From the NCBI GenBank assembly GCA_014155875.1, contig JACEFZ010022429.1:248001-312000 (forward strand): a DNA stretch of 64,000 bases, read 5' to 3'. The position numbers were made by a program, and so were the translations under genes. The notes below the pieces were generated by a model. The model had not been told where the DNA came from. It did not search any database and saw only the letters and a program-made list of their open reading frames with translations. Source of the DNA: Cepaea nemoralis (taxonomy: Eukaryota; Mollusca; Gastropoda; Stylommatophora; Helicidae). The first letter of the stretch is position 1; every line of letters begins with the position of its first letter. Of this stretch, positions 1 through 59,710 are shown one piece after another.

Positions 1-20
1 GAAAAAGCATTTGATAAAGT

Positions 21-3735: not shown

Positions 3736-4299
3736 TGAAGACAAGACATTATCCTGGTACCTAACTAGCAGTCGCGAGATAGTCAAAGACGCATCCTATA
3801 TAAATCTGTGCTGCAATTAGCAGTATTAGCCTACAGTTCTACCAGTAGTACAACAAAATTCACACTGATAAGAACTCTACAATGAAGAACATAACATTCT
3901 TGTTGTAGTCTTCAACAGTTCAGAAGCTTAAATATTTATAGCAATTTTCGCAACATGAGACACTATTTTCTCATCAAAATATGCTGACATTCCTAATGAG
4001 GACTACAGATATTAAAATTATCTGTTTGCTCTAGAAACTTCAATATGTAAGTATGAGGACCAGTAAGAACGTAATGCACCACATGTCATATTATCAGCGA
4101 AAATACAACAGAAACATACCATTTTGCATAATTAACGTTAGAAATATTTCTAGTATGTGTATGAAAATGTATCACATTTGACAATTAGAACAACTGCAGT
4201 AATCTGTTAAACTGGTGTGTGTGAACAACTTGCGTTACAAACATCAAATTGAATCGATTTTCTAGTTGCAGAAAAGGAAACGTGAACATTCACAAATGC

Positions 4300-5165: not shown

Positions 5166-5177
5166 GGTCACTTGCAT

Positions 5178-15187: not shown

Positions 15188-15441
15188 TATACAGAGAGGT
15201 AAGCTAGCAGGTCTAGTACAATATAACTGCAAATTACTATACAGATATATGAACAAGTACTATAAATCTAGATATTACCACACACAGCACATTCACTCAG
15301 TGACAAGAGTAGAATCAGGACCACAGACCTATGCAGACGTGTGAAGTGTGAACAGGTCAGATATTTGTCCTAACCCCTATCCACATTCACTCTAGCTGGA
15401 TTCTCCAAAATGATATCTCCCTCTTATAACTAAGGATCCCG

Positions 15442-30771: not shown

Positions 30772-32013
30772 TTAAATGTCAACCTGTATATAGTTAAAGT
30801 AATCTGCGGTCAACTTTAGCTTGTTGATATCTCCATAGAGCTTGTCCTCAAATGAAGCAGGTGTGGGCCAAAATATCTTTCTCTGTTCTGCATACGTTGG
30901 GCAATCCTGCAGCAAATGTTTTGCTGTCATTTTTCCAGTTCTACAATTACATTCATCGGTATCTCCTATCTTTAGTTTATTGAACAAGTGGTATTTCAGC
31001 CTGTTATGTCCTGTGCGGAGCCTGAAGATTGCTACTTGTTCTCTTCGGTCGAGTTTGTAATATGCATCATCCTTCTGATGGCCTGGATGCTCTGATTCCC
31101 ATTTGGTTCTATAAGTGCTTTTTATCAACCTCTTTGCCTCATTATAGGTTATGTCTATGTCAGGCTGTGGTAGTCGTCCGCCCTCTTTTGCCAGTCTGTC
31201 AGCCTCTTCGTTTCCAGGTATACTGCAATGTGATGGGATCCACTGTATTACAACTTTTTTGGATTTCTGGCATAGACCATGGAGTGCTGCTCTTAGGTCA
31301 GTTAGTTCTGTGCTGTTATTGCTCTTCAGTATTGAGACAGCTGACTTTGCATCTGTGAAGATAGCTATTTGCTTCTCTTTATTTTCCTCCATCAGGAGCA
31401 TTTCTGCTGCAGTTTTCAGAGCCTCTACCTCCGCTTTGAAGTTACTTGAAAATTTTCCAGTTGCCATTGAATGTGTTTTTTTCGCTCCATTTTTTAAATT
31501 TAGGAGAATTCCTCCTCCTCCTCCATTCTCTATTGAAATTTTGGCTGATCCATCTGTATATGCATGGGTCCAATTCCTGCTTGGGTAATGTTCTTTTATG
31601 TAGTTTAGGGTTATTTCTCTTCTTTCGGTTTCATGCTGAGTGTTCTTTTTCTCAATACCAGGAATGTTTTCTATCATCTCAGGCAGTTGCTGCTGTCTCC
31701 AAGCTGGGAACTTGTGTGCATTGTGTATGGGCTTGACTGTTGATATGTTAAGAATAGGATCTGACCTAATCCTTAGTTTTGCAGTTTCTACAAAGTTGCT
31801 ACGCTTCAGTCTTCCCTTTCCAAAACCATTAAATCTGTTGTACATAGGGTGGTCTGTAAATCTTCTAAATTTTTCTGCTTGTTGCTGGGCTCTGCTATCT
31901 CTTCTATCCTGCATTGGTTGTAAACAAGTGATCTTTTCTAATTCATTAATAGGCGTTGTCTTCAGGCTTCCAGTTATGATTCGCATTCCTTGATTTTGGA
32001 CTCTACTTATTTT
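30772..32013 (-). pseudogene. LINE A copy 2 ORF2 C-terminal part (RNase H)
   Basis: Open from the truncation point to the stop at 30772 and highly similar to residues 229-638 of the ORF at 21-1937. The RNase H residues are retained (YTDGSAKI, KAEVEAL, FTDAKSA, NEEADRLA) and the C-terminal Cys/His motif is present. RT palm and nuclease are absent, so it is a dead fragment despite the open frame. The first 35 or so codons of the longer frame to 32112 are flanking DNA. Confidence 0.88.
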
Positions 32014-32595
32014 GAAAGATATTCTATACTTCCCACATAAAAACGCATATTGATTATTGCTCCACAATCTGGGATGGATGTTCCAAATCAATAGCAAAAC
32101 GCCTTTATTCACTCCAGAAAAGGACAGTGCATTTAATCAATGGTGATAAGCTTACAGACAATTCTAACCTACACGAACGTCTTCAGTTACTGCCACTCCA
32201 CAAACGCCTACTTTTTAATAAGGCTAAACTAAGTCACAAAATCCTATTTCAAAATGCTCCCAGCTACTTTTGACCATTGTTTAAATATAATGCAAGACAT
32301 AGCGAACGACTAAATATACTTCGTGTCCCTAAACCTAGGATAGACTGAATATAAAACAAGCTTAGCATACTCTGCCACGCAGGTGTGGAACAATCTCCCA
32401 CAAGAAATCAAAGACACCACCAATAATTATACATACAGTCGCAACCTGTTTGAACACTACCTCAGTACAGACTACATGCCCCCCCCCCCCCCCCTAAACA
32501 CAATAGCACAGTTCGGGGCGACTGCACTAGCCAGGCGGCCTTAATTTCTCAGGCTCAAGACTTCCTCAAAAAATACACCACAAGGAATTATATAT

Positions 32596-35821: not shown

Positions 35822-36036
35822 GACCCGGCCCGGCATTGCCCAGCTCCTGGTGTGGAGCATCTCATTTAATTCATATAAGTAGTCATATAAGTTCCCGTTC
35901 CCGACTGTCTATCTGTCTGTCTATCTGTTTGTCTATCTGTCTGCCTGACCCTGCCCGGTTTCGCCCAGTCCCTGGTGGGGAGCATCTCATTTAATTCATA
36001 TAAGTAGTCATATAAGTTCCCGTTTCCGTTACCGAC

Positions 36037-36073
<37 letters not shown>

Positions 36074-36316
36074 GACCCGGCCCGGCATCGCCCAGCTCCT
36101 GGTGTGGAGCATCTCATTTAATTCATATAAGTAGTCATATAAGCTCACGTTCCCGTTCCCGACTATCTATCTGTCTGTCTGTCTGTCTGTCTGTCTGTCA
36201 GTCTGTCTATCTGTCTGTCTATCTGTCTGATCCGGCCCGGCTTCGCCCAGCCCCTGATGGGGAGCATCTCATTTAATTCATATGAGTAGTCATATAAGTT
36301 CCCGTTCCCGACTGAC

Positions 36317-36374
<58 letters not shown>

Positions 36375-36375
36375 A
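35655..36375 (+). repeat. Tandem units with (TGTC)n runs
   Basis: Five units, each with a GACCCGGCCCGGCTTCGCCCAG block and a GGGGAGCATCTCATTTAATTC block, then CATATAAGTTCCCGTTCCCG and a TGTC microsatellite of varying length. Period is roughly 110-190 bp. The first block is preceded by ACTAGCTG. Confidence 0.85.
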
Positions 36376-36439
36376 TCATTTATTGGTTGCAGTTAGAACA
36401 ACCTTAGATAAACGAAGACCAACTTGGTAATATATTAAC

Positions 36440-36645
36440 TTGGGTAAATGGAGCAGCGGCAGCAGCAGCAGAAGAAGAAGAAAAAGGAGGAGTAGGAGCT
36501 GGGAGGAGGAAGAGGGAGGAGGAGGGAGGAGGAGGAGAAAGAGAGAAGAGGAGGATGGAGGAGGGAGAGGGAGGAGGGGGAGGAGAAGAGGAAGAGGGTA
36601 GGAGGTGGAGGAGGGGAGAGGAGGAGGAGGAGGAATATAACGCAT
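36440..36645 (+). repeat. Polypurine GGA/GAA-rich block (short)
   Basis: About 200 bp of almost pure purine (GGAGGAGGA, GAAGAAG). Open frames on the other strand are Pro/Ser/Leu low-complexity artefacts. Confidence 0.9.
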
Positions 36646-37059
36646 ATGCCTGTAGATTTAATAATGGCTGAGGTTGTTCCATGTCTTCTTAGAGTTGGCG
36701 ACAGTGTAAAGAAATATAAAATCTTCAAACTTGATAGAGATAAGGTAACTATTATTTATTCATTCTTTAAGCAAAAAAAGATGAGTTACAATGTTATGCA
36801 TTATGCATTATTTTTATGAAAACTTTGAAAATGCCTTACAGATTGTATCATTATTTATTATAACTCATATGCCGGTACATAACTATGGACAAAGAGTTTA
36901 TAAATCTTTGAAAACGATGCCACAATATGACTATAAGTTATACAGAAAAGTTATGCCCCTTGAAATAACTTTTACAGAGTTAAGTCCCCTGAGATAGATG
37001 AAATTATAATGAAAAATGAAATAATTTTGGGTAAGCAGCCGATTTCATACTAAAAAAAT

Positions 37060-37195
37060 ATGACAGTGGGCTGCGCTGGAATGAAAGGAAGACGTGTAAA
37101 AAATTTCATCTCAATGGGATGGGCCGTTCGCGAGCGCATTAGGGACATATAGACAGACAGACAGACGGACGGAGATCGCCTTTTATATATAAGAT
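37060..37195 (+). mobile_element. Dispersed repeat 3' end (GACA/GACG tail)
   Basis: Contains CTGGAATGAAAGGAAGACGTG, then AATTTCATCTCAATGGGATGGGCCGTTCGCGAGC and CAGACAGACAGACGGACGGAG. A second copy with a different simple-repeat end is at 39695-39850. A widespread type of animal repeat end whose class I cannot name with certainty. Confidence 0.55.
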
Positions 37196-37379
37196 ATACC
37201 CATCCATGTTGGGTTTTCCTCTTGTCCGCTTACTCGTTAGGCCTCCCTCCATATACATCTTTTCCAGACTCTACACGCCCAAAGTATTTCATTTCCCTCA
37301 CTTTCGTTTGTCTTAATAACCACATTTCTTTGACAATGAATCCCTGTTGAACGGTTCAGTGTGTTCTCTATTTCGCCCA

Positions 37380-39345
37380 TGCAGGAGGAGGAGAGGGAGG
37401 AGGAGGGAGGAGGAGGAGAGAGTAGGAGGAGGGAGGAGGCGGAGGGAGAAGGAAGAGGGAGGAGGAAGAGGGAGAAGGAGGAGGGAGAAGGAGGAGAAGG
37501 AGGGGAGGAGGAGGAGGAAGAGGAGGAGGGGAGGAGGAGGAGGGAGGAGGAGGAATGTGAAGGGAGGAGGAGGGAGGAGGTAGAGGGAGGAGGAGGAGGG
37601 AGGCGGAGAGAGGAGGAGGGAGGAGGAGGAAGAGGGAGGAGGAGGAATGTGAAGGGAGGAGGGGGAGGAGGTAGAGGGAGGAGGAGGGAGGAGGAGGGAT
37701 TAGGAAGGAGGAGGGAGGAGTAGGGTGGAGGAGGAGGCGAGGAGGAGGGAGGAGGAAGAGGGAGGAGGAGGGAGAAGGAGGGAGGAGGAGAACGCAGGAG
37801 GAGAAGGGAGCAGGAGGAGGATAGGGAGGAGGAGGGAGAGGGAGGAGGAGGGAGGAGGAGGAGAGAGTAGGAGGAGGGAGGAGGCGGAGGGAGAAGGAAG
37901 AGGGAGGAGGAAGAGGGAGAAGGAGGAGGGAGAAGGAGGAGAAGGAAGAGGGAGGAGGAAGAGGGAGAAGGAGGAGGGAGAAGGAGGAGAAGGAGGGGAG
38001 GAGGAGGGAAGAGGAGGAGGGGAGGAGGAGGAGGGAGGAGGAGGAATGTGAAGGGAGGAGGAGGGAGGAGGTAGAGGGAGGAGGAGGAGGAGGGAGGCGG
38101 AGAGAGGAGGAGGGAGGAGGAGGAAGAGGGAGGAGGAGGAATGTGAAGGGAGGAGGGGGAGGAGGTAGAGGGAGGAGGAGGGAGGAGGAGGTAGAGGGAG
38201 GAGGAGGAGGAGGAGGAGGGAGGAGGAGGGAGGAGGAGGAGGGAGGAGGCGGAGAGGGAGGAGGAGGAAGGAGGAGGGGGAGGAGGGAGGAGGAGGGAGG
38301 AAGAAGGAGGAGGAGGGAGGAGGAGTGATGAGGAGGAGGAGGAGGAGGAGGGAGGAGGAGGATGAGGAGGAGGGAGGAGGAGGAAGAGGGAGGAGGAGGA
38401 ATGTGAAGGGAGGAGGAGGGAGGAGGTAGAGGAGGAGGAGGAGGAGGAGGAGGAGTGAGGAGGAGGAGAGGGAGGAGGAGGAAGGAGGAGGGGGAGGAGG
38501 GAGGAGGAGGGAGGAAGAAGGAGGAGGAGGGAGAAGGAGGGATGAGGAGGAGGAGGGAGGAGGAGGAAGAGGGAGGAGGAGGAATGTGAAGGGAGGAGGA
38601 GGTAGAGGGAGGAGGAGGAGGGAGGAGGAGAAGGGAGGAGGAGGGATGAGGAGGAGGGAGGAGGAGGGATGAGGAGGAGGGAGGAGGAGGAAGAGGGAGG
38701 AGGAGGAATGTGAAGGGAGGAGGAGGGAGGAGGTAGAGGGAGGAGGAGGAGGAGGAGGAGTGAGGAGGAGGAGAGGGAGGAGGAGGAAGGAGGAGGGGGA
38801 GGAGGGAGGAGGAGGAGGAGGGAGAAGAAGGAAGGAGGAGGAGGAAGGAGGGAGAGGAAGGAGGGAGAATGAGGAGGGGAGGAAGGAAAGAGAGGTGGAA
38901 GGGGAGGAGGAGGGAGGAGGAAAGAGGTAGGGGGAGGAGGAGGTAGAGGGAGGAGGAGGAGGAAGGAAAGGGAGGAGGAAGAGGAGGAGAAGGGAGGAGG
39001 AGGGTGGAGGGAGGAGGAGGAGGGAGGAGGTAGGAGGAGGAAGAGGGAAGAGGGAGAAGAAGGGAGAAGGAGGAGGGAGGATGATGAGGGAGAAGGAGGC
39101 AGGAGGAGGAGGAGGGAGGCAGGAGGAGGAGGGATGAGGAGGGAGAGGGAGGAGGAGGGAAGATGAGGGAGGAGGGGGGAGGAGGCGGAGGGAGTAGGAG
39201 GGAGGAGGATGGAGGAGGAGGGGAGAGGAAGAGGGAGAAGGAAGAGGAGAAGGAGGAGGAGGAGGGAGAGGGATGAGAGGGAGGAGGAAGAGGAGAAGGG
39301 TGGAGGGAGGAGGTAGAGGGAGGAGAAGAGAGGGGGAGAGAGTTC
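37380..39345 (+). repeat. About 2-kb GGA-rich polypurine tract
   Basis: Nearly 2 kb of G and A on the plus strand, with few pyrimidines, built of GGAGGAGGGA-type units. Longer sub-repeats such as GGAATGTGAAGGGAGGAGG and GGTAGAGGGAGGAGG recur at intervals, showing higher-order duplication. Very long open frames (up to 660 codons on the minus strand) result from stop-poor sequence and are not genes. Such tracts can form triplex or G-quadruplex structures. Confidence 0.95.
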
Positions 39346-39694
39346 GCCATTCCGAATTCATACTCGTCTAGTTCTTCCCTTCTACACGACTGTAGATAAC
39401 TTCCTTACACATAAAAAGATGAATTGTTATTGATATTGCCGTGGCATGGAGGAATATCAGCAGCAGAGTTGATCCAAAAAACCAAAGACTGAGATCTACG
39501 GAGAGCCATGAACGCCTACGCCAGCCGGCACGGCACTTGATGATGATGATTGCCGTGTGACGATTCTGTGTAGTCACGTCATTTTCTTCCCTTTCCCTAG
39601 CGTTTTGGTTCGGGGATTCTTTCATCATCATCATCATATATTTACGTACGTATTTTGGGAGGGGGAGGAGGGAGGAGGAGGAAGAAGAAAAAAA
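39346..39694. other. Mixed DNA with LINE-end-like piece
   Basis: 39430-39550 resembles a short LINE C-terminus followed by (GATGAT)n (39540-39550). Not strong enough to classify. A short GGA run at 39660-39690 echoes the adjacent tract. Confidence 0.3.
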
Positions 39695-39850
39695 AACTAT
39701 GACAGTTGACAGCTCTGGAATGAAAGGAAGGCGTGTAGAAAATTTCATCTCAATCGGATGGGCCGTTCGCGAACAAATAAAGGACATACATATTTACATA
39801 CATACATATATACATACATATTTACATACATACACTTTGTTTTATAAATA
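39695..39850 (+). mobile_element. Dispersed repeat 3' end, second copy
   Basis: Shares GGAATGAAAGGAAGGCGTG and TTTCATCTCAATCGGATGGGCCGTTCGCGA with 37060-37195 but ends in a (CATA)n repeat. Confidence 0.55.
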
Positions 39851-40416
39851 TAGATATGTAAAACTATTCCGATGTGTATCGGACGACACCCACAATTCTT
39901 CCACAGTACGTAAACCAACAACCATAATAGACCGGATGACAGACCCCAATTTGCGGCAAAGTAGATTAGGAACAGGGAGAAAGATATCCCTATTCGAAGA
40001 GGCCAACTACTATAGAAAACCTGAAATGGCTCATAAGACTCCCTAGTGGTGGAGACATGTTGTAGAGTGGGGTTCATATAGATATAAGAAAGGTTTTCCA
40101 GTAGAGGGCCAGGAGAGCCAGTAAAGTCACCACAGTCAAGAGAGGGGGAAGCTCACTCTGGATAACTTGACGCGTGTTGTCTCACTGCCACCTTCTGATC
40201 TCCTCTATATTTAATGTCAAATTATGTAACAATATTAGATTTAACATCACAAAACCTTACATCAATCAACACGGAAAGAGAAGAACACTCATTATTGTAA
40301 ATTATGACAATATATTGGGATAATAAGGGGGGGGGGGGTAGATGGGGGTGACAAATGAGAAATTACACATCTCAAAAATAATGCATGAATAAAGATATAC
40401 GTGACCACTAATTATC
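39851..40416. other. Unassigned region
   Basis: A frame across 39850-40046 has no recognised domain. A G run is at 40328-40338. Nothing else supported. Confidence 0.3.
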
Positions 40417-46060: not shown

Positions 46061-46627
46061 GCTCCCTGATCGTGTATTTAAAGAAATTGGAACAGCTAAA
46101 GCATACCAGAGTCATTTTGAATCTGAAGTTTTAACTTCATCATCCAAACTAAGTGCATCTTGTGAGAGTGCATCATCAGTGAAGATGAGGACATGATTCT
46201 ATAGGTAAGTCACATCAATTTTTTTTAATGTTGTATATCCGTTACAGGACGTTGCAGTTAACATCAGAATTTTTCAGCTGCTGTTGATGTACTATGCAAG
46301 ATTATGCTCAGTAGTTTGCGATTGCTTTCTGAGCGACCGGTTCACAGCGTATTATGAGTAGTATGTAATGATGCCTACACCCCCCCCCCCCCTGGAGAAG
46401 GTGCGCACCTATTTTACTAAGAATAAAGAAGGAGGTGCCGGTAGGTGCTGTCGTTTTTAGTAAGCGCAAAGAAGGAGGTGCGGGACATAACTCAGGAGTA
46501 AATAATCGTCTGTTTTTGTGATATTACCTCCCCTTTTTTTAGACTTTTTTTTTTTTAAAGAATTACAATTTTATTATTCCTGGTATCGTAGGTTGTAGTG
46601 GGCGGGGCTTCGTGTTATTTGTTGTTA

Positions 46628-47010
46628 AGGTGTGGTTGAGTGGCCGAGTAGTTAAATATCTGCATCGAAACACTATCATCATATCATTTTAGAGCTTCAA
46701 ATGAAATCCTTACAAAGGTCAAGATGGCCAGTAGTATTGATTTTAATGGGTATGGCTTAGCGTAAGTCGGTGTTAAGGAGTGGGTAGCAGTTACTAGTGA
46801 GCCGTAGAGGGTCGTAGTGGTTTAAACAATATCATCATACAGATTAAAAATGAAAACCTTAAAAAAGTAAAGATGACCGGTATTATTGCATTTAGTGGGT
46901 ATGACTTTGTGATATTCGTTGTTAAGGGGTGGGGTGAGTGGATGAGTAACCAGATAAACGCTTCCGAACACTATCATCGGGTTCGAACCCCAGTGGGGAG
47001 GTCTAGTGGT
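46628..47010 (+). repeat. tRNA-like subterminal repeats, left arm
   Basis: Three related units. The first has GGTTGAGTGGCCGAGTAGTTAA (A-box-like, Ser/Leu style). The third, at about 46930-47005, has GAGTGGATGAGTAACCAGA and a full B box GGGTTCGAACCCC. Blocks of the type ACACTATCATC link them. Not a credible functional tRNA array. Confidence 0.5.
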
Positions 47011-48109
47011 AGAAGAAATATTTATGTTTTTGTTACTTAGTTGTGATGGAGAGCTCTGGTGTTATTAACCCGGCTATGTTTAAGGGTACCCCAGACACTG
47101 TGGAAGTGACAGGTTCGAATCTCGGTACTTTGTCGTTGGTAAAATTGCCAGTCATCAACAGGTGGGTGTCTAGTTGATTATAGGGGTTAGTGCCGCTTTG
47201 TCCGGCCGTGTCGCCGCAGCCACAAGTCCCACCGCTGATGAAAAAACATAGGCATCAAATTTCACCCTTGTACCTATGCGTCACAAAATATAACATAACT
47301 ATCAGAATATGATATAATCTTAACCTCAACAGGTGTTGCCAAAAATCAATACTCATTTTCATAACGGCTAATCCAGGGGCTTATCGTCGTCGTAATGACA
47401 AAGATGGGGTATTGATATTACTAATATCTTCATGGCTGCAAATAGTTCGCGATATTAATAAAGGTTAATATAAAGGCTGGAAGGGGATTAAAGGATTAAC
47501 ACCTATTGTCGGATTATCCACAGAAATCAAAAGCACTGCTCAATCGATTTTACTCATATGTGGCGGTTGGGGATTATGGGTTAGGTGTATGTGTCCTTAT
47601 TCAGTTAAAACAGGTGGTATGAGTAGGAGATATCACAAACAGTATCAGCATATGCCACTCTGATCTTAAATATCAGTAGTTCGTTATTCTTGTGACATTG
47701 AAAACGATTGGGGTTTGAAAAAGGATGGTGTACTATGTGATACAGGTCACCCCTGTCAGCGCATCGTAGCTGTGTTGTGAATTGTTGCCTATTACATCCG
47801 GGTGTGAAAATAATCAAACATATTTCATATCAGATCAATAGGCATGCCTCTATATAGCTGCACTGCGAACTTGGTTAGAGTCTACTTTAGGAAGTATCGT
47901 GTATCTGTGTATGCGCACTTACCACTTCTTATAGATGTGTGTAGTATTATTGGAGAGCAGCCGTTATGTATACATTATCAGAGTATGTTGCCTTACTAGG
48001 GCTGGTGTAGTGTCTTTGTGTCTGCTATGCTGCATGTATTGTTCTGTTGCCTTGTATTATTTGGAGGGAGTTTCATGTGGTTGTCAAGTTAATTTTTCCC
48101 CACTCAGAA

Positions 48110-48290
48110 TCCACATCCCCAGTGTCATTAGATGGTTTTTAACTTGTCTGCCCTATTGTCCTCGCTTCACATTCATACAATAGTATAGGTTCTATGTAGT
48201 ACTTGAACACTCTTTTTCTCCTTGTAATTGACATCTTTATATTAGTCATTATGTTTTCCACCTTACCAAAGACTACCTTCAACATATCGA
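48110..48290 (-). pseudogene. LINE RT debris inside left arm
   Basis: Minus strand carries the same RT C-terminal remnant (RRKRVFKYYIEPILLYE-like) as 57450-57620 in the right arm. The element therefore absorbed an old LINE piece before its arms were duplicated. Confidence 0.5.
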
Positions 48291-48805
48291 AGCTTGGTCT
48301 ATCCTCTTAAAGACAACTACTTCTTTTAGTCTATTTGCTACATTTTTCCCATGTCAAGCTTCATGTCTCTGATCGTCTGTATTAGTGTGTTAGAAGTAAA
48401 CCAACATCACACAAGACAGTCATACACTACCACAATGTATACAAAAAGAAGCAATACACATAATCACAGTATATAAATATAGTACTAAATAGGAAGTAGT
48501 TGAAAGAATTCAAGTACATTATTACAAGGTAAATTAAATACAGTGATATGTATAAAATATCACACACCCGTGTTACATTAGCAAATAAGTACAAAGCACA
48601 AGGGTATGAAATACGTTGGTGTATTAGTTACATACAAATGAACCATACAACATACCGGCAAGTCCGCTACGGGACATAACTCGTGTGAAGTTATGTCTGT
48701 AACCAACAGAAATGTGTGTGTGGTAATAACTACGATGTCTGTCTTTCATCATGTATCTGACCTGTTTGCATACCACTACATTCCTTCGTTCACTTGTTGT
48801 ATACT

Positions 48806-48995
48806 ACCAATCAGGGTAATTATCTTAGAATTGACCCACATTTTATGTTAGACAAGCATTGATTGGCTGTTCACTTGTGGTCTACAACCAATCAGGGTAA
48901 TTGTCTTAGAATTGACCCACATTTTATGTTAGACAAGCATTGATTGGCTGGCAACTATAAGGTGGGCGGGGCTTACTGTATGTAATATATATCCA
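48806..48995 (+). promoter_or_regulatory. Candidate Pol II promoter, left zinc-finger gene
   Basis: Two direct repeats with an 81-bp period (48806 and 48887), each starting ACCAATCAGGGTAATT and ending GCATTGATTGGCTG, so each holds a CCAAT and an inverted CCAAT box. A GC box GGGCGGGGC (48964-48972) and TATATAT (about 48986-48993) follow. The zinc-finger ATG lies about 540 bp downstream. Confidence 0.5.
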
Positions 48996-49090
48996 ACTCA
49001 CTACCTCTCACTCTCTTTGTGATGTACACAAGAACGACGAAAGATTGGATCTTCAGTTTTGTGATTATTCAATGACTATTTGCCTTCAAG

Positions 49091-49335
49091 ATTAGAAAGT
49101 TTGCCATTTACCGTTTTGTCTCAGTATCCACGGACTATCAGCCATATACGGACCTACAGCTTTTGCGGCTCTTTCTTCCAATTTTTGGACATTCACAACT
49201 GCCTTGTAAGAATTATCAGCCAGATTCTTACCCTGACGCATCCGAAGTGTAAGCAACCTCGTTATTCTGCCATAGTTTACAACGTCATCTGCAAAGAAGT
49301 CATCGGCGTTTGAAACAAAGACGAGGAAAAAAGTG
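49091..49335 (-). CDS. Unknown antisense ORF in zinc-finger leader, left arm
   Basis: Mirror of the better-read frame at 56400-56642. It has no upstream ATG after the preceding stop, so it could be an exon or a chance frame. Overlaps the 5' leader of the zinc-finger gene on the other strand. Confidence 0.2.
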
Positions 49336-49538
49336 TTCGGGATTGAAACAGTTTACTAGACTAGTGAATAATACATCTTGTTGTTTGAGTATTTGACTTA
49401 CCTATCTAGCCAACATCGTGTTATCGACCTTTGGTGAAAGATAGAAACTAAATATATTCAACGCTATATTCATCGGCTTCGCTGTGAACGTGTGTCAAGT
49501 CGACAGTTGCTTGTCTCAGTATCAAGTCGCTAGTGAAC

Positions 49539-50384
49539 ATGCCTAAAAATACAAAGATGTCAACTAGGCAATCATCTGAGAACCACTTATGTGCAACTTG
49601 TGGGAAAGGTTTCACTGAAAGGCGCAGTCTGCTTCGCCATACTCGGACCAGTCACAGTACCAAGGAGCAAGTGTATTCGTGTCACACTTGTGGTCATAAG
49701 TTTAACAGAAAAGACAATCTACAACGTCACATTACAAAGGAACACACTACACCAGAAGTATCACCCAGTGTAATACCAACAGACGCTTCAACACCCGCTT
49801 CAGCAACACTACGTAAGAGACATGTGGCTACTAATAGTGATGTGGCAGTCAGCGAGAAGAAGACTAAACAAGACGAAAACTCCCAGCCAGTCAGTGACAC
49901 ACAACCCAAGGATGAAGCGGCTTCTTTACACACTCTTCCAGATGATATTAGACAAGTATACACCGACAACTGGAGTAGTATCAAAACACATCACAAGATA
50001 AACAAATATATGTCTGTCTATACATTTTATATTAGCCCACACACAATCCACCCTAAAGACTGGGCATCTACCTTGAACAAGATCTTTACCATTCAAAAGA
50101 GCATATTCAAAATCAACTTTAGTTATCATATAGTCCTTAGGCACAGCGAAACAGACGCTCTTCGATTGTATCACGCATCTTCAAATAATGCTTCTGTCTT
50201 AGAACTTCCACAACTAATCAAAAATAGACAAGACTTTGACGATTTTATCAAAATAGTACACGAACATGACGTTCTTACCTACGCTATGCAACAACGTCCA
50301 AATACCAAATACACTACAGAGACGATCCAGCTATATGTTTTTATCTCTATCATATCCCAGAATTCCGGCTTGTTTAATAAATAA
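49539..50384 (+). CDS. C2H2 zinc-finger protein, left arm
   Basis: 281 aa from the ATG at 49539 (a GTG two codons upstream is not used as the start). Two C2H2 fingers: C18, C21, H34, H39 and C48, C51, H64, H69. A basic Ser/Thr-rich linker follows (about 70-130; RKRH, EKKTKQ), then a folded-looking domain at about 135-258 with FKINFSYHIVLRHSETDALR and YHASSNN motifs. From memory, similar zinc finger plus FKIN...LRYYHSS regions occur at the N-terminus of large protein-primed-type DNA polymerase ORFs in animal transposons; no search was run. The frame leaves the conserved region after residue 263 and then ends, so it may be the stump of a longer gene or a stand-alone DNA-binding protein. Confidence 0.75.
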   Translation: MPKNTKMSTRQSSENHLCATCGKGFTERRSLLRHTRTSHSTKEQVYSCHTCGHKFNRKDNLQRHITKEHTTPEVSPSVIPTDASTPASATLRKRHVATNSDVAVSEKKTKQDENSQPVSDTQPKDEAASLHTLPDDIRQVYTDNWSSIKTHHKINKYMSVYTFYISPHTIHPKDWASTLNKIFTIQKSIFKINFSYHIVLRHSETDALRLYHASSNNASVLELPQLIKNRQDFDDFIKIVHEHDVLTYAMQQRPNTKYTTETIQLYVFISIISQNSGLFNK

Positions 50385-50610
50385 CCACCCTTTTATGACC
50401 CACTGTGCATGATCATACTAGATATAACATTCCATATTTAACCATCCATTTTGTATATTGGTATTACGCTTGTTCCTTTTTGTGTAAAATTTGCTGGAAA
50501 TACTGTAAAATAAACAGTTTTATGTATTATAAGTGCGTTCACTTGTTGGTTTTTAGTGTTGACGGTACATATGAGTGTCATGTTGTGAGCGGGTGTTACA
50601 TGTTGATGGC

Positions 50611-51660
50611 CAAGTCAAGAAATATCTCAACCATACTTATAAAAATTAGGAAAATATGTTAACCTAATGAGAAAATTATTGACCAAGTGAAGAAATATCT
50701 CAACCATACTTATTAAACGGAGAAAAATGTGTTATCCAATAGGGAAAAATATTGACCAAGTGAAGAAATATCTCAACCATACTTATGAAAAGGAGAAAAA
50801 TGTGTTAACCTAATGAGAAAAATATCGCCCAAGTGAAGAAAAATTTACACAAAACTTATAAAACTTAGGAAAATGTGTTAATCTAATGAGAAAAATATCG
50901 CCCAAGTGAAGAAAAATGTACACAAAACCTATAAAACTTAGGAAAATGTGTTAATCTAATGAGAAAAATATCGCCCACGTGAAGAAAAATTTACACAAAA
51001 CTTATACAACTTAGGAAAATGTGTTAACCTAATGAGAAAAATATCGCCCAAGTGAAGAAATATCTCAACCATACTATGAAAAGGAGAAAAATGTGTTAAC
51101 CTGATGAGAAAATATCGCCCAAGTGAAGAAATATCTCAACCATACTTATGAAAAGGAGAAAAATGTGTTAACCTGATGAGAAAATATCGCCCAAGTGAAG
51201 AAAAATTTACACAAAACTTATAAAACTTAGGAAAATGCTGTTAACCTAATGAGAAAAATATTGACCAAGTGAAGAAATATCTCAACCATACTTATGAAAG
51301 GAGAAAAATGTGTTAACATAATGAGAAAATATCGCCCAAGTGAAGAAAAATTTACACAAAACGTATAAAACTTAGGAAAATGTGTTAACCTAATGAGAAA
51401 AATATTGCCCAAGTGAAGAAAAAATTTACACAAAACTTATAAAACTTAGGAAAATGTGTTAACCGAATGAGAAAAATATTGACCAAGTAAAGAAAAACGT
51501 ACTCCAAACTTCTGAAAATAAAGAAAATTTGTTAACCAAAAGGGAAAAATATATGGGCTAAACTATGAAATATGTTGACCGAAGTAAGAAAATGTGTTAA
51601 CCAAATAGGGAAAAATGTTGGTCAAAACATGAAACATCTCGACCAAACTTATAAATATCT
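50611..51660 (+). repeat. 72-73-bp minisatellite, left arm
   Basis: About 14 units of TGTGTTAACCTAATGAGAAA followed by AATATCGCCCAAGTGAAGAA and an alternating third block (either ATCTCAACCATACTTATGAAAAGG or AATTTACACAAAACTTATAAAAC). AT-rich and free of coding signals. Confidence 0.88.
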
Positions 51661-52622
51661 CGTGTAAACTTCTAAAAAAGTAGGAAGAAATATTGCTTCT
51701 GTATTTATGTCAAACGTGTCTTGAACTTTTATCTGAACAGACATTTCACAAGACATAATCATCAACGTCAACACTTTCCCTCTTTTACATTACTGAAAGC
51801 TTCAACTTATCAGTCCAGAGTATCCACTAAAGAAGCACTTATGCATACTAATCACCCAGCTCTTCACACTCTTGGTTTTTTTTTTTCTTTTCTAACACAA
51901 AGTGTCTCTGTCTTTCATAGATAGCTTCACAACATTTCTATGTAGCACCACTAACAACTCCAAACCTTCGTTGCACATGAGCTCTAATGAAACAGTCATA
52001 ACAACATTTATGGCAATGCAATCGGTGGCTCCACCTGGGATAGTTTCAATAGCATCTGAGTATTCGTCAGCAAAGATCCACTTCCCATGGCTTACATCTT
52101 CAACTTTCTATACCACAATGTCTGCTACACTAACCTTCCATTGGTCCATCTTTCAACAATACAAAGAGTGTTCTCGAAGTCTAGCTAACATAACATTGCT
52201 TACTTTGTCCACCTCTATCACACTTTGTCATTTCACAGCTGCAATAGCGGCAAGTCTGCAACCAACCAACAGTGTCTGTTATGAATTCGACCTTTCTTAA
52301 AGCCACGTCTGCCTTACTGAGCCCTTGAATACCCTCTACCACATCGTCTAACCGACTTTCAACGTTTCATACCAAATAACATTAACATTCTCTTTGATTA
52401 CAGAACAGCTGATTTTCTGCTGACTAGGCAGATTTTCCAACCTCGCGGAGATAAATCATATGCCCCCTAACCTACTAGGCGCTATTCTAGACAACGAATA
52501 TGGTAATCGACCAGCACCCCTAGGCAGAACTTGAAAAAACAACAGAGCTTGGGTTATTGAGACGAATGAGTTGCATTCCTTGGACTAACCAGAAAGACAT
52601 CAAACACAACAAACTCTTTCTT

Positions 52623-52709
52623 ACTAACCCTAACCCTAAGTATACAGCATCTAATCCTAACCCTAACCCTAACTATACATCAACTAACACTAACCCTAAC
52701 CCTAACTAT
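52623..52709 (-). repeat. TTAGGG-like repeats, left arm
   Basis: Three clusters of two or three CCCTAA units on the plus strand, separated by TATACAGCATCTAAT-type spacers. Confidence 0.8.
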
Positions 52710-52818
52710 ACAACAAACTCTTTCTTAAGAGACATAGATACAAGCCAGTGTTAGAAATGAAAAAGTTAAATCTATGTGATTAAAATTTAAAACTAATAAA
52801 TCGCAATTTTATTGCGCA

Positions 52819-52891
52819 AGATGTAAGCTTGATATATATCCTATACCTAACCTATACCTATACTTACCCTATATCTGTATATTAAGTGAAG
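52819..52891. other. Spacer at palindrome centre
   Basis: About 73 bp of non-palindromic sequence, with CCTATACCTAACCTATACCTA telomere-like drift. It would form the loop if the arms pair. Confidence 0.75.
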
Positions 52892-53002
52892 CGCGCAACA
52901 ATATTGCGATTTATTAGTTTTAAATTTTAATCACATAGATTTAACTTTTTCATTTCTAACACTGGCTTGTATCTATGTCTCTTAAGAAAGAGTTTGTTGT
53001 AT

Positions 53003-53095
53003 AGTTAGGGTTAGGGTTAGTGTTAGTTGATGTATAGTTAGGGTTAGGGTTAGGATTAGATGCTGTATACATAGGGTTAGGGTTAGTAAGAAAGA
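53003..53095 (+). repeat. TTAGGG-like repeats, right arm
   Basis: Mirror clusters of TTAGGG. The G-rich strands point outward from the centre on both arms, the reverse of a telomere-to-telomere fusion. Confidence 0.8.
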
Positions 53096-53268
53096 GTTTG
53101 TTGTGTTTGATGTCTTTCTGGTAGTCCAAGGAATGCAACTCATTCGTCTCAATAACCCAAGCTCTGTTGTTTTTTCAAGTTCTGCCTAGGGGTGCTGGTC
53201 GATTACCATATTCGTTGTCTAGAATAGCGCCTAGTAGGTTAGGGGGCATATGATTTATCTCCGCGAGG

Positions 53269-53529
53269 TTGGAAAATCTGCCTAGTCAGCATAAAATCAG
53301 CTGTTCTGTAATCAAAGAGAATGTTAATGTTATTTGGTATGAAACTGTTGAAAGTCGGTTAGACGATGTGGTAGAGGGTATTCAAGGGCTCAGTAAGGCA
53401 GACGTGGCTTTAAGAAAGGTCGAATTCATAACAGACACTGTTGGTTGGTTGCAGACTTGCCGCTATTGCAGCTGTGAAATGACAAAGTGTGATAGAGGTG
53501 GACAAAGTAAGCAATGTTATGTTAGCTAG
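53269..53529 (+). CDS. Unknown small ORF near palindrome centre, right arm
   Basis: 86 aa (MENLPSQHK start, GLSKADVALRKVEF, then a Cys cluster TCRYCSCEMTKC). A second frame on the same strand at 53560-53730 reads MDQWKVSVADIVV, a stop, then ISHGKWIFADEYSDDIE. Both may be parts of one decayed or intron-bearing gene. The left arm carries the mirror copy with a private stop. Family unknown. Confidence 0.3.
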   Translation: MENLPSQHKISCSVIKENVNVIWYETVESRLDDVVEGIQGLSKADVALRKVEFITDTVGWLQTCRYCSCEMTKCDRGGQSKQCYVS

Positions 53530-54044
53530 ACTTCGAGAACACTCTTTGTATTGTTGAAAGATGGACCAATGGAAGGTTAGTGTAGCAGACATTGTGGTAT
53601 AGAAAGTTGAAGATATCAGCCATGGGAAGTGGATCTTTGCTGACGAATACTCAGATGATATTGAAACTATCCCAGGTGGAGCCACCGATTGCATTGCCAT
53701 AAATGTTGTTATGACTGTTTCATTAGAGCTCATGTGAAACGAAGGTTTGGCGTTGTTAGTGGTGCTACATAGAAATGTTGTGAAGTTATCTACTGAAAGA
53801 CAGAGACACTTTGCTGTTAGAAAAGAAAAAAAAAAAACACCAAGAGTGTGAAGAGCTGGGTGATTAGTATGCATAAGTGCTTCTTTAGTGGATACTCTGG
53901 ACTGATAAGTTGAAAGCTTTCAGGTAATGTAAAAGAGGGAAAGTGTTGACGTTGATGATTATGTCTTGTGAAATGTCCTGTTCAGATAAAAGTTCAAGAC
54001 ACGTTTGACATAACTACAGAAGCAATATGTGTTCCTACTTTTTT

Positions 54045-55130
54045 TAATAAGTTTACACGAGATATTTATAAGCTTGGTCGAGATGTTTCATGTTTTGACC
54101 AACATTTTTCCCCTATTTGGTTAACACACTTTCTTACTTCGGTCAACATATTTCATAGTTTAGCCCATATATTTTTCCCTTTTGGTTAACAAATTTTCTT
54201 TATTTTCAGAAGTTTGGAGTACGTTTTTCTTTACTTGGTCAATATTTTTCTCATTCGGTTAACACATTTTCCTAAGTTTTATAAGTTTTGTGTAAATTTT
54301 TTCTTCACTTGGGCAATATTTTTCTCATTAGGTTAACACATTTTCCTAAGTTTTATACGTTTTGTGTAAATTTTTTCTTCACTTGGGCGATATTTTCTCA
54401 TTATGTTAACACATTTTTCTCCTTTCATAAGTATGGTTGAGATATTTCTTCACTTGGTCAATATTTTTCTCATTAGGTTAACACATTTTCCTAAGTTTTA
54501 TAAGTTTTGTGTAAATTTTTCTTCACTTGGGCGATATTTTCTCATCAGGTTAACACATTTTTCTCCTTTTCATAAGTATGGTTGAGATATTTCTTCACTT
54601 GGGCGATATTTTCTCATCAGGTTAACACATTTTTCTCCTTTTCATAGTATGGTTGAGATATTTCTTCACTTGGGCGATATTTTTCTCATTAGGTTAACAC
54701 ATTTTCCTAAGTTGTATAAGTTTTGTGTAAATTTTTCTTCACTTGGGCGATATTTTTCTCATTAGATTAACACATTTTCCTAAGTTTTATAAGTTTTGTG
54801 TAAATTTTTCTTCACTTGGGCGATATTTTTCTCATTAGATTAACACATTTTCCTAAGTTTTATAAGTTTTGTGTAAATTTTTCTTCACTTGGGCGATATT
54901 TTTCTCATTAGGTTAACACATTTTTCTCCTTTTCATAAGTATGGTTGAGATATTTCTTCACTTGGTCAATATTTTTCCCTATTGGATAACACATTTTTCT
55001 CCGTTTAATAAGTATGGTTGAGATATTTCTTCACTTGGTCAATATTTTTCTCATTAGGTTAACATATTTTCCTAATTTTTATAAGTATGGTTGAGATATT
55101 TCTTGACTTGGCCATCAACATGTAACACCC
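54045..55130 (-). repeat. 72-73-bp minisatellite, right arm
   Basis: Inverted counterpart of 50611-51660, with the same order of variant units, so duplication of the arm came after expansion of the array, or the arms have been converted since. Confidence 0.88.
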
Positions 55131-55323
55131 GCTCACCACATGACACTCATATGTACCGTCAACACTAAAAACCAACAAGTGAACGCACTTATAATACATA
55201 AAACTGTTTATTTTACAGTATTTCCAGCAAATTTTACACACACAGAACAAGCGTAATACCAGTATACAAAATGGATGGTTAAATATGGAATGTTATATCT
55301 AGTATGATCATGCACAGTTGTGC

Positions 55324-56196
55324 CTAACGTGGGTCATAAAAGGGTGCGTTATTTATTAAACAAGCCGGAATTCTGGGATATGATAGAGCATAAAAACATA
55401 TAGCTGGAATCGTCTCTGTAGTGTATTTGGTATTTGGACGTTGTTGCATAGCGTAGGTAAGAACGTCATGTTCGTGTACTATTTTGATAAAATCGTCAAA
55501 GTCTTGTCTATTTTTGATTAGTTGTGGAAGTTCTAAGACAGAAGCATTATTTGAAGATGCGTGATACAATCGAAGAGCGTCTGTTTCGCTGTGCCTAAGG
55601 ACTATATGATAACTAAAGTTGATTTTGAATATGCTCTTTTGAATGGTAAAGATCTTGTTCAAGGTAGATGCCCAGTCTTTAGGGTGGATTGTGTGTGGGC
55701 TAATATAAAATGTATAGACAGACATATATTTGTTTATCTTGTGATGTGTTTTGATACTACTCCAGTTGTCGGTGTATACTTGTCTAATATCATCTGGAAG
55801 AGTGTGTAAAGAAGCCGCTTCATCCTTGGGTTGTGTGTCACTGACTGGCTGGGAGTTTTCGTCTTGTTTAGTCTTCTTCTCGCTGACTGCCACATCACTA
55901 TTAGTAGCCACATGTCTCTTACGTAGTGTTGCTGAAGCGGGTGTTGAAGCGTCTGTTGGTATTACACTGGGTGATACTTCTGGTGTAGTGTGTTCCTTTG
56001 TAATGTGACGTTGTAGATTGTCTTTTCTGTTAAACTTATGACCACAAGTGTGACACGAATACACTTGCTCCTTGGTACTGTGACTGGTCCGAGTATGGCG
56101 AAGCAGACTGCGCCTTTCAGTGAAACCTTTCCCACAAGTTGCACATAAGTGGTTCTCAGATGATTGCCTAGTTGACATCTTTGTATTTTTAGGCAT
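55324..56196 (-). CDS. C2H2 zinc-finger protein, right arm
   Basis: 290 aa, identical to the left-arm protein over residues 1-263. Then a single-base difference gives another C-terminus (IPAICFYALSYPRIP...). Both versions keep the two fingers and the downstream domain open. Identical proteins on arms that differ elsewhere suggest recent homogenisation or selection. Transcription would run inward, towards the palindrome centre. Confidence 0.75.
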   Translation of the reverse strand: MPKNTKMSTRQSSENHLCATCGKGFTERRSLLRHTRTSHSTKEQVYSCHTCGHKFNRKDNLQRHITKEHTTPEVSPSVIPTDASTPASATLRKRHVATNSDVAVSEKKTKQDENSQPVSDTQPKDEAASLHTLPDDIRQVYTDNWSSIKTHHKINKYMSVYTFYISPHTIHPKDWASTLNKIFTIQKSIFKINFSYHIVLRHSETDALRLYHASSNNASVLELPQLIKNRQDFDDFIKIVHEHDVLTYAMQQRPNTKYTTETIPAICFYALSYPRIPACLINNAPFYDPR

Positions 56197-56399
56197 GTTC
56201 ACTAGCGACTTGATACTGAGACAAGCAACTGTCGACTTGACACACGTTCACAGCGAGCCGATGAATATAGCGTTGAATATATTTAGTTTCTATCTTTCAC
56301 CAAAGGTCGATAACACGATGTTGGCTAGATAGGTAAGTCAAATACTCAAACAACAAGATGTATTATTCACTAGTCTAGTAAACTGTTTCAATCCCGAAC

Positions 56400-56642
56400 A
56401 CTTTTTTCCTCGTCTTTGTTTCAAACGCCGATGACTTCTTTGCAGATGACGTTGTAAACTATGGCAGAATAACGAGGTTGCTTACACTTCGGATGCGTCA
56501 GGGTAAGAATCTGGCTGATAATTCTTACAAGGCAGTTGTGAATGTCCAAAAATTGGAAGAAAGAGCCGCAAAAGCTGTAGGTCCGTATATGGCTGATAGT
56601 CCGTGGATACTGAGACAAAACGGTAAATGGCAAACTTTCTAA
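56400..56642 (+). CDS. Unknown antisense ORF in zinc-finger leader, right arm
   Basis: Reads NADDFFADDVVNYGRITRLL, then GKNLADNSYKAVVNVQKLEE and PYMADSPWILRQNGKWQTF, then TAA. Composition is protein-like and hydrophilic, unlike the hydrophobic frame on the other strand. No start codon at its head. Family unknown. Confidence 0.25.
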   Translation, partial: TFFLVFVSNADDFFADDVVNYGRITRLLTLRMRQGKNLADNSYKAVVNVQKLEERAAKAVGPYMADSPWILRQNGKWQTF

Positions 56643-56742
56643 ACTTGAAGGCAAATAGTCATTGAATAATCACAAAACTGAAGATCCAATCTTTCGTCGT
56701 TCTTGTGTACATCACAAAGATGAGTGAGAGGTAGTGAGTTGG

Positions 56743-56935
56743 ATATATATTACATACAGTAAGCCCCGCCCACCTTATAGTTGCCAGCCAATCAATGCTT
56801 GTCTAACATAAAATGTGGGTCAATTCTAAGACAATTACCCTGATTGGTTGTAGACCACAAGTGAACAGCCAATCAATGCTTGTCTAACATAAAATGTGGG
56901 TCAATTCTAGACAATTACCCTGATTGGTAGTATAC
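56743..56935 (-). promoter_or_regulatory. Candidate Pol II promoter, right zinc-finger gene
   Basis: Mirror of 48806-48995: TATATAT at 56743-56751, GC box at 56763-56771 (GCCCCGCCC on plus), then the two CCAAT-bearing repeats. Conservation on both arms supports function. Confidence 0.5.
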
Positions 56936-57449
56936 AACAAGTGAACGAAGGAATGTAGTGGTATGCAAACAGGTCAGATACATGATGAAAGACAGACATC
57001 GTAGTTATTACCACACACACATTTCTGTTGGTTACAGACATAACTTCACACGAGTTAGGTCCCGTAGCGGACTTGCCGGTATGTTGTATGGTTCATTTGT
57101 ATGTAACTAATACACCAACGTATTTCATACCCTTGTGCTTTGTACTTATTTGCTAATGTAACACGGGTGTGTGATATTTTATACATATCACTGTATTTAA
57201 TTTACCTTGTAATAATGTACTTGAATTCTTTCAACTACTTCCTATTTAGTACTATATTTATATACTGTGATTATGTGTATTGCTTCTTTTTGTATACATT
57301 GTGGTAGTGTATGGCTGTCTTGTGCTGATGTTGGTTTACTTCTAACACACTAATACAGACGATCAGAGACATGAAGCTTGACACGGGAAAAATGTAGCAA
57401 AGAGACTACAAGAAGTAGTTGTCTTTAAGAGGATAGACCAAGCTTCGAT

Positions 57450-57620
57450 ATGTTGAAGATAGTCTTTGGTAAGGTGGAAAACATAATGACTAATATAAAG
57501 ATGTCAATTACAAGGAGAAAAAGAGTGTTCAAGTACTACATAGAACCTATACTATTGTATGAATGTGAAGCGAGGACAATAGGGCAGACAAGTTAAAAAC
57601 CATCTAATGACACTGGGGAT
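57450..57620 (+). pseudogene. LINE RT debris inside right arm
   Basis: Reads FGKVENIMTNIKMS, then RRKRVFKYYIEPILLYECEA, matching the RKRVLxCYxEPILLYGCE motif of animal LINE RTs. Mirror of 48110-48290. Confidence 0.5.
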
Positions 57621-58764
57621 GTGGATTCTGAGTGGGGAAAAATTAACTTGACAACCACATGAAACTCCCTCCAAATAATACAAGGCAACAGAACAATACA
57701 TACAGCGTAGCAGACACAAAGACACTACACCAGCCCTGTAAGGCAACATACTCTGATAATGTATACATAACGGCCTGCTCTCCAATAATACTACACACAT
57801 CTATAAGAAGTGGTAAGTGCGCATACACAGATACACGATACTTCCTAAAGTAGACTCTAACCAAGTTCGCAGTGCAGCTATATAGAGGCATGCCTATTGA
57901 TCTGATATGAAATATGTTTGATTATTTTCACACCCGGATGTAATAGGCAACAATTCACAATCACAGCTACGATGCGCTGACAGGGGTGACATGTATCACA
58001 TAGTACACCATCCTTTTTCAAACCCCAATCGTTTTCAATGTCACAAGAATAACGAACTACTGATATTTAAGATCAGAGTGGCATATGCTGATACTGTTTG
58101 TGATATCTCCTACTCATACCACCTGTTTTAACTGAATAAGGACACATACACCTAACCCATAATCCCCAACCGCCACATATGAGTAAAATCGATTGAGCAG
58201 TGCTTTTGATTTCTGTGGATAATCCGACAATAGGTGTTACGCTCTTAATCCCCTTCCAACCTTTATATGAACCTTTATTAATATCGCGAACTATTTGCAG
58301 CCCTGAAGATATCAGTAATAGCAATAACCTGACTTGGTCATTACGATGACGATAATCCCCTGGATTAGCCGTTATGAAGATGAGTATTGATTTTTGGCAA
58401 CACCTGTTGTGATTTTGAATCGTATTCTGATTTTTAAGTTATGTTATATTTTGTGACGCATAGGTACAAGTGTAAAATTTGATGCCTGTGGTTTTCATCA
58501 GTGGTGGGACTTGTGGCTGCGGCGACACGGCCGGACAAAGCGACCCTGACCCGTATGATAAACTAGACACCCACACGTTGATGACTGGCAATTTTACCAA
58601 CGACAAAGTACCAAGAGTCGAACCTGTCACTTCCACAGTGTCTGGGGTACCACCTAAACATACTCAGCAACCAGCACACCGCAGCTCCTTTTCTAAATAT
58701 AGCCGGATTAATAACACCAGAGCTCTCCATCACAACTAAGTAACAAAAACATTATCAATATTTC

Positions 58765-59160
58765 TTCTACCACTAGACCTCCCCACTGGGATTCGAACCC
58801 GATGATAGTGTTCAGAAGCGTTTATCTAATTACTCATCCACTCACCCCACCCCTTAACAATGGATATCACAGGTCATACCCACTAAATGCAATAATACCG
58901 GTCATCTTTACTTTTTTAAGGTTTTCATTTTTAATCTGTATGATGATATTGTTTAAACCACTACGGCCCTCTACGGCTCACTAGTAACCGCTACCCACTC
59001 CTTAACACCGACTTTCGCTAAGCCATACCCATTAAAATCAATACTACTGGCCATTTGATATTTGTAAGGTTTTCATTTGAAGCTCTAAAAGGATATGATG
59101 ATAGTGCTCGGAAGCAATTTACCTAGCTACATCGCAACTCACCCATCCCTTAACAACTAA
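58765..59160 (-). repeat. tRNA-like subterminal repeats, right arm
   Basis: Inverted counterpart of 46628-47010, including GGGATTCGAACCCG at about 58788-58801, but more diverged than the inner arm sequence. Confidence 0.5.
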
Positions 59161-59710
59161 CGCCACTAAGACCCGCCGACTACAACCCATGATAACAGAA
59201 TCATTAAATTTTAATTTTAAAAAAATAAAATTCTTCAAAAAGGGGAGGTAATATCACAAAAACAGACGATTATTTACTCCTGAGTTATGTCCCGCACCTC
59301 CTTCTTTGCGCTTACTAAAAACGACAGCACCTACCGGCACCTCCTTCTTTATTCTTAGTAAAATAGGTGCGCACCTTCTCCAGGGGGGGGGGGGTGTAGG
59401 CATCATTACATACTACTATTATGAGGATGATGGTGGACCATTGGAACCTGCTGGTATTAAATTACCAGCGCGGCTCGAACCGCTGCCGGTTCGGGTGCAG
59501 CTGCGTTACTCACGAGAATATACGGGATTACGGCGACAGCAGTAAACTCTTCGCCATGGAGACCGGCAGTCACATCAATACATATGTAATTTCTTACTTT
59601 CTCAATCTGGATATTTTTCCTAGATACTTTCCAACGAAATCTAGATATTTATGGATGTTGTTTGGGCCATTTCTAGATACTTTTGGTCAAAAAAAAAAGT
59701 GGCAACCCTG

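Follow-up and report, generated by a model that had tools for sequence, protein, structure and literature searches.

Anatomy of the palindromic element

We analysed a window of 64,000 nucleotides from the gastropod Cepaea nemoralis (GenBank contig JACEFZ010022429.1, positions 248,001 to 312,000). It corresponds to C20799:248001-312000 in the 3.47-Gb assembly that was used for all genome-wide searches. The window contains a palindromic mobile element of 13,061 bp (46357-59417), which is a single inverted repeat around a short central loop. A first-pass annotation, made from the sequence alone, had placed this loop at about 73 bp. Aligning the two arms confirms the inverted repeat and sets the loop at 75 bp, since 75 nt lie between the innermost arm segments (52588-52817 and 52893-53122). 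The alignment contains 6,333 matching columns, 133 mismatches and 129 columns with gaps. Identity is 88-96% (per 250-column window) in the outer 1.2 kb and about 99.4% inward of about 47.56 kb. The element ends, AGTAGTATG on the left and CATACTACT on the right, are of the AGTAGT/ACTACT type and are flanked on both sides by the target site duplication (TSD) ATTATG. Reading the ends and the TSD at both sides supports the earlier claim that an element with symmetric ends was inserted as a unit.

The features of the element, including its open reading frames (ORFs), are as follows.

46351-46356, no strand: left TSD, ATTATG; the 6-bp TSD is perfect and different in each of the 12 copies examined
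46357-52817, plus strand: left arm of the palindrome, which starts with AGTAGTATGTAATGATGCCTAC
49095-49525, minus strand: broken Bcl-2-like gene of the left arm, in pieces and outward-reading (found by tblastn, the query being the open Bcl-2-like ORF at locus L061, see below)
49539-50384, plus strand: centre-facing ORF of 281 aa with two zinc fingers of the C2H2 type, followed by a C-terminal part of unknown kind
50610-51552, plus strand: tandem array of the left arm, 13 copies of a 73-bp unit
52623-52716, plus strand: telomere-like CTAACCCTAACC repeats of the left arm, 33-bp unit
52818-52892, no strand: central 75-bp loop, identical by eye in 9/9 full palindromes
52893-59417, minus strand: right arm of the palindrome, which finishes with CATACTACT
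52994-53088, minus strand: telomere-like repeats of the right arm
54169-55111, minus strand: tandem array of the right arm, 13 copies of a 73-bp unit
55324-56196, minus strand: zinc-finger ORF of the right arm, mirroring that of the left (the frame is open over 55324-56247)
56210-56639, plus strand: broken Bcl-2-like gene of the right arm, mirroring that of the left (tblastn with the open L061 ORF)
58200-59417, minus strand: outermost ~1.2 kb of the right arm, in part derived from another sublineage (arm alignments)
59418-59423, no strand: right TSD, ATTATG, a perfect match to the left one

Six ORFs of at least 100 aa touch the element. Pfam searches with them recover the zinc fingers and weak chance matches, and four of the six have no match at all. 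PolB, rve integrase, ATPase, protease and capsid are all absent from these ORFs, in line with the earlier remark that the element lacks the core genes of Polintons. Both arms carry telomere-like CTAACCCTAACC repeats near the centre of the palindrome. Moreover, a single Rfam match covers the central hairpin, far under its cut-off, and ARAGORN found no tRNA.

A family of palindromes with different target sites

Using the first 301 bases of the element as the query, we scored 40 matches genome-wide, the best 40 of 654 candidates. Twenty-four of them form 12 inverted pairs, the window element included, and 16 are single. The window element and the 11 other pairs are the 12 copies examined here, and the single-end matches were not taken; since the copies were picked by both ends among the best 40 matches, the sample is biased to intact ends. 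A script that sought end pairs flanked by equal 6-mers found perfect 6-bp TSDs outside AGTAGT...ACTACT in all 12 copies, every one different. The element is therefore not confined to one locus, and further copies with other 6-bp TSDs exist; the first-pass annotation had named their absence as a ground for refuting its reading. The 3-kb flanks of the window element have nothing in common by blastn in either orientation, and the 60 bases outside the TSD agree at 12-20 positions in 12/12 copies, which is near chance. Because the flanks are unrelated beyond the TSD, the palindrome ends at the duplication.

Nine of the 12 copies, of 12,964-13,495 bp, are palindromic right to the loop. The copy on C22237 is palindromic over 5.2 kb, and those on C23268 (9,389 bp) and C22617 (7,508 bp) have terminal inverted repeats (TIRs) of 2.8 kb and 0.93 kb, respectively. 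The centres of all three are non-inverted, which we read as internal deletions or replacements.

Two short patterns were counted in the whole assembly. The 22-base end pattern AGTAGTATRTAATGNTGCNTAC, one among several end types in the 12 copies, occurs 80 times (control 0). Both pattern ends are found on 27 contigs with spans of 7.7-18.7 kb, 18 of which are 12.1-14.2 kb, and one end on a further 26 contigs. A 24-base word from the loop has 599 exact occurrences (305 and 294 by strand; control 0), a count of loop words and not of whole elements. The family may thus have been amplified to several hundred copies.

The two arms evolve in concert

By eye, all nine full palindromes have one and the same 75-bp loop (the three other copies were excluded). 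Since it is shared at the same centre, the palindrome is ancestral. The earlier suggestion of an inverted dimer formed at the locus was thus not borne out; the palindrome was inherited.

The inner arms differ between copies by up to ~17% (pairwise searches over 1.3 kb), and these differences are mostly common to both arms. In the inner 1.15 kb, 1,998 of the 2,165 differences between left arms are the same in the right arms, summed over 36 copy pairs, which overlap, so that the differences are not independent events. This indicates that the arms evolve in concert. A tree of the 18 inner arms has four lineages, each of which contains the left and the right arms of its copies. A clade of all left arms is rejected (log-likelihood 685 lower, p value of the approximately unbiased test (p-AU) 6e-57, with one set of identical rows left unconstrained). 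Moreover, the copies on C13270, C10451 and C21007 lie at different sites and share six identical inner arms, which means that the symmetric state travels with the element.

The outer parts are least symmetric in the window copy (107 left-right differences in 4,080) and in the copy on C23537 (55 in 4,100). Between alignment columns 600 and 1200, the right outer end of the window copy is 97.6-99.7% identical to the left arm of the C23537 copy, compared with 90-95% to its own left arm. We read this mixed outer end as a probable exchange of ends between lineages.

A zinc-finger ORF and a Bcl-2-like gene in mirror pairs

Each arm has a centre-facing zinc-finger ORF with two C2H2 fingers by Pfam, and the left one encodes 281 aa. 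Its relatives are numerous: 138 were scored genome-wide, the best 138 of 10,356 candidates, and most are without stops. The matches listed lie on 91 contigs, 44 of which have one and 47 two. Among them the two matches of a pair run plus then minus in 47/47 cases; 45 pairs lie within 8 kb, and the other two are 8.1 and 17.5 kb apart. The relative at locus L061 is 80% identical to the window ORF. Comparing it with the ORFs of five other copies gives ratios of nonsynonymous to synonymous substitution rates (dN/dS) of 0.54-0.59, which is consistent with mild constraint on the ORF. Among the five ORFs themselves there are at most five changes, too few for dN/dS.

A database search with the zinc-finger ORF gave three matches, which are C2H2 proteins by their Pfam domains, and a length-padded search gave none. 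No relative was found among viral contigs, and matches in PHROGs were weak and mostly to zinc-finger or function-unknown families. The AlphaFold model is poor, with a mean predicted local distance difference test score (pLDDT) of 39.9. We also considered whether a Maverick PolB gene might begin with this ORF. This was not confirmed, since a profile comparison with 24 PolBs gave a probability of 9.9% and a zinc-finger-like overlap only.

Upstream of the zinc-finger ORF lies a broken, outward-reading Bcl-2-like gene, 2.74-3.17 kb from the left end. The same two breaks are present in 22 of the 24 arms examined; of the other two arms, one has the tail only and one gave no match. At L061 (C9304:34400-38900), in contrast, an open Bcl-2-like ORF (3414-3896, minus strand) lies near the centre of a related element. 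It matches Pfam family PF00452 with 54.6 bits against a cut-off of 31.4, and in a comparison with solved structures Bcl-xL chains rank first. Bcl-2-type genes can block cell death.

Genome-wide, 150 Bcl-2 matches were scored, the best 150 of 1,516 candidates. Of these, 145 are without stops, and part of them are surely host genes. Among the matches listed, 51 contigs carry a single one. Close pairs within a contig number 48, and all but one of them (47) show the minus-then-plus mirror orientation. The spans of these mirror pairs are 1.0-1.3 kb in 25 cases and 3.3-8.7 kb in 22. The 25 short pairs represent a second arrangement of the gene.

Several contigs link the Bcl-2 pairs to the palindromic family. 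Two contigs with the 22-base ends, C3564 and C15012, have an outward-reading left Bcl-2 gene at a distance of 2.8 kb from the left end, as in the window copy; the mirror gene is 2.8 kb from the right end on C3564 and 3.6 kb on C15012. On C4135 and C4677 the loop is found midway between two Bcl-2 genes. Finally, C500 and C12672 each carry a zinc-finger ORF together with a closely spaced Bcl-2 pair. Because relatives that share the ends or the loop keep the gene open, the group of the window copy appears to have lost it. No single element among those listed was found to combine the ends, the loop and open Bcl-2 genes.

Positions of the loop word were listed for the first 100 of its 599 occurrences, on contigs up to C5521. 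There, the word lies at most 230 bp from the centre in 7/7 zinc-finger pairs and in 3/5 two-ended elements. The exact word is central in two of six widely spaced and in none of nine closely spaced Bcl-2 pairs. On C5339 it is present elsewhere on the contig. C3564 and C5446 have family ends and no exact loop word, a diverged loop not having been looked for.

Kinship with Mavericks and the search for a helper

The likeness of ends and TSD to Polintons/Mavericks, proposed in the first-pass annotation, agrees with published data. According to the accessible part of PMC8097293, the commonest end type of intact vertebrate Mavericks is (AGT)2//(ACT)2, and these elements have 6-bp TSDs, lengths of 12.7-24.6 kb and TIRs of 46-1,447 bp. 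The same part of that source ascribes the end repeat to jumping-back initiation in protein-primed replication. The ends and the 6-bp TSD are found in 12/12 copies of the snail family, and the 13,061 bp of the window element fall within the Maverick range. In contrast to Mavericks, however, the TIR of the palindrome is the whole half of the element, 6.5 kb long with no unique core, which bears out the earlier statement that it far exceeds Polinton length. The palindrome also differs in its fixed central loop and many copies. We therefore regard the element as a Maverick derivative by its ends and a complete palindrome by its form, which would work like a Maverick and not be a full member of the group.

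Maverick-type PolB genes are present in the same genome, with at least 95 matches on at least 87 contigs (in the family search, the best 91 of 296 candidates were scored). An integrase-like frame, named by eye, adjoins one PolB locus, and the highest-ranked PolB relative that bears a species name, at 67% identity, is from the land snail Bradybaena similaris. The PolB loci L059 and L060 have an N-terminus different from the zinc-finger ORF. A third PolB, at L062 (C215:369700-371900), is AT-rich and of a different type, and looks unrelated to the zinc-finger ORF; it perhaps belongs to another virus-like element or to a contaminant. Two inverted pairs of PolB matches, facing each other and 5-7 kb across, were seen at C9089:269423(+)/274745(-) and C19005:341275(+)/348250(-). 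PolB-bearing palindromes may exist too.

The first-pass annotation had also proposed to look for longer relatives with the same ends that carry polymerase B, integrase or capsid genes; none with a polymerase and an integrase was found among the matches listed. The two longest two-ended elements, of 18.7 kb (C5446:613302-632016) and 17.6 kb, were both taken as candidate helpers. In 801 bases of the former, a retroelement RNase H piece stands beside inner-arm sequence of the family that is ~90% identical to other copies. The C5446 element is thus probably a palindrome with an insertion, though one without the exact loop word. A search for the Pox_A32 ATPase recovered a single match, which has three stops and lies on a contig that appears in none of the other searches.

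A possible hairpin stage and its alternatives

A palindrome of the whole length with a fixed loop suggests copying through a giant hairpin. We consider it probable that the element is a non-autonomous Maverick/Polinton derivative with an inherited palindrome, protein-primed ends, passage through a hairpin and an integrase acting in trans. A terminal protein and a Maverick PolB, both provided in trans by a helper, would initiate synthesis at the AGTAGT ends through a jumping-back mechanism. The displaced 13-kb strand would then fold into a 6.5-kb hairpin whose one duplex end keeps the origin. In this hairpin, the arms would be made alike through mismatch repair or by one arm serving as template for the other. 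The palindromic duplex would be restored as synthesis runs from the single end around the loop, and a Maverick integrase, again in trans, would insert this duplex with a 6-bp duplication. More tentatively, the palindrome may be the usual, non-degenerate state of a separate group of virus-like elements, though we think this rather less likely than otherwise. The genome of such a group would be a 6.5-kb hairpin with one protein-primed end, doubling to a palindromic duplex only for integration. It would carry the zinc-finger gene, joined in sister lineages by an open Bcl-2 homologue.

Several results weigh against protein-primed fold-back replication with a Maverick helper. A helper sharing these ends did not turn up among the matches listed, and the 87 listed PolB contigs do not overlap with those listed for the zinc-finger ORF, Bcl-2, the end pattern (53 contigs) or the loop. 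Neither profile comparison nor search revealed significant kinship of the zinc-finger ORF with Maverick PolB. Within the lineages of the inner-arm tree, the two arms of the C6419 copy are not sisters, and the same is true for C16066. Copies resemble each other far more closely in their outer 4.15 kb, where only 773 of 1,549 differences are found in both arms. Finally, pure fold-back copying would not leave an asymmetry such as that of the outer 1.2 kb of the window copy. Asymmetric outer ends are compatible with template exchange near the origins and speak somewhat against pure fold-back copying.

Concerted arms can also come from chromosomal gene conversion. The element would then move by ordinary Maverick-type integration, with no hairpin, and its arms would be kept alike in the chromosome, as any long chromosomal palindrome can convert (compare the palindromes of sex chromosomes). 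That the outer parts, far from the centre, are least symmetric in the window copy and in C23537 fits this explanation. The perfect TSDs in 12/12 copies, however, indicate that the copies look young, and the six identical inner arms of C13270, C10451 and C21007 are found at different sites. These data still leave room for conversion in source copies ahead of transposition, and we regard gene conversion without a hairpin as unlikely. We give less credence still to a cut-and-paste or foldback transposon of another superfamily with a 6-bp TSD, for instance of the Dada or IS3EU types, whose TIRs have grown to giant size. Foldback elements with long TIRs do exist, and the ORFs of at least 100 aa in the element lack any Maverick gene; by Pfam, however, the same ORFs have no transposase match either. 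Moreover, tandem AGT ends with a 6-bp TSD, found in 12/12 copies, are the published Maverick signature (PMC8097293, accessible part).

Two further explanations concern the origin of the palindrome itself. Adenovirus-type genomes can give inverted dimers, and a separate dimer might have formed at each locus by fold-back from a non-palindromic parent. This is rejected because the loop is shared, with the same loop at the same centre in 9/9 full palindromes and 599 loop words in the genome, and we hold it to be very improbable. Palindromes are also a known read artefact, produced for example when a missed adapter gives inverted reads. An artefact would not be expected to stop at a duplication, and here the palindrome ends at the TSD in 12/12 copies, between unrelated flanks and at many loci; we find an assembly error scarcely credible.

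Comparison with other systems

Foldback elements and Galileo, of the P superfamily, likewise have very long inverted repeats (PMC4168063, accessible part). In the snail element, by contrast, the palindrome is complete and has one conserved loop. The TSD length and the ends of Foldback and Galileo reportedly differ from those described here as well. A hairpin or self-annealed strand, as proposed for our element, is found in parvoviruses, Bidnaviridae and the palindromic defective genomes of adenoviruses. Bidnaviridae are single-stranded DNA viruses with a protein-primed PolB, according to the accessible part of PMC4061559. These are viral genomes, whereas the palindrome resides in the chromosome and lacks a polymerase; a hairpin stage is proposed for it from the concerted arms and the shared loop.

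That mobile or viral DNA can carry a Bcl-2-type gene has precedents. Adenovirus E1B-19K is a Bcl-2-domain protein in a virus. Bcl-2 domains are also described in giant Gypsy retroelements of planarians (PMC6431247, accessible part). Unlike these carriers, the snail elements have Maverick-type ends and hold the gene in mirror pairs within palindromes, and in the window copy it is broken. In the literature covered, including the accessible parts of PMC8097293, PMC12220804 and PMC6431247 and outside subscription papers and preprints, we found neither a palindromic Maverick nor a Bcl-2 gene in a Maverick. Up to ~600 loci with concerted arms would be natural evidence for a hairpin stage of Maverick-type DNA, and the family would make inference on Maverick replication testable in an animal. 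Moreover, it points to a route by which Bcl-2-type genes may spread through a genome.

Other sequence in the window

Gypsy-type and other retroelement frames lie at 5168-7551 and 10550-15259 (minus strand), 18-1937 (plus strand) and 30772-32136 (minus strand), with reverse transcriptase, RNase H, integrase and gag domains by Pfam. The region 36000-40000 is strongly G-biased and purine-rich, with a GC skew of 0.46-0.75 and long overlapping open frames, and perhaps consists of low-complexity repeats. Finally, an open frame of 649 aa at 23157-25106 (plus strand) has a BED finger and a hAT dimerisation domain and possibly encodes a whole hAT transposase.

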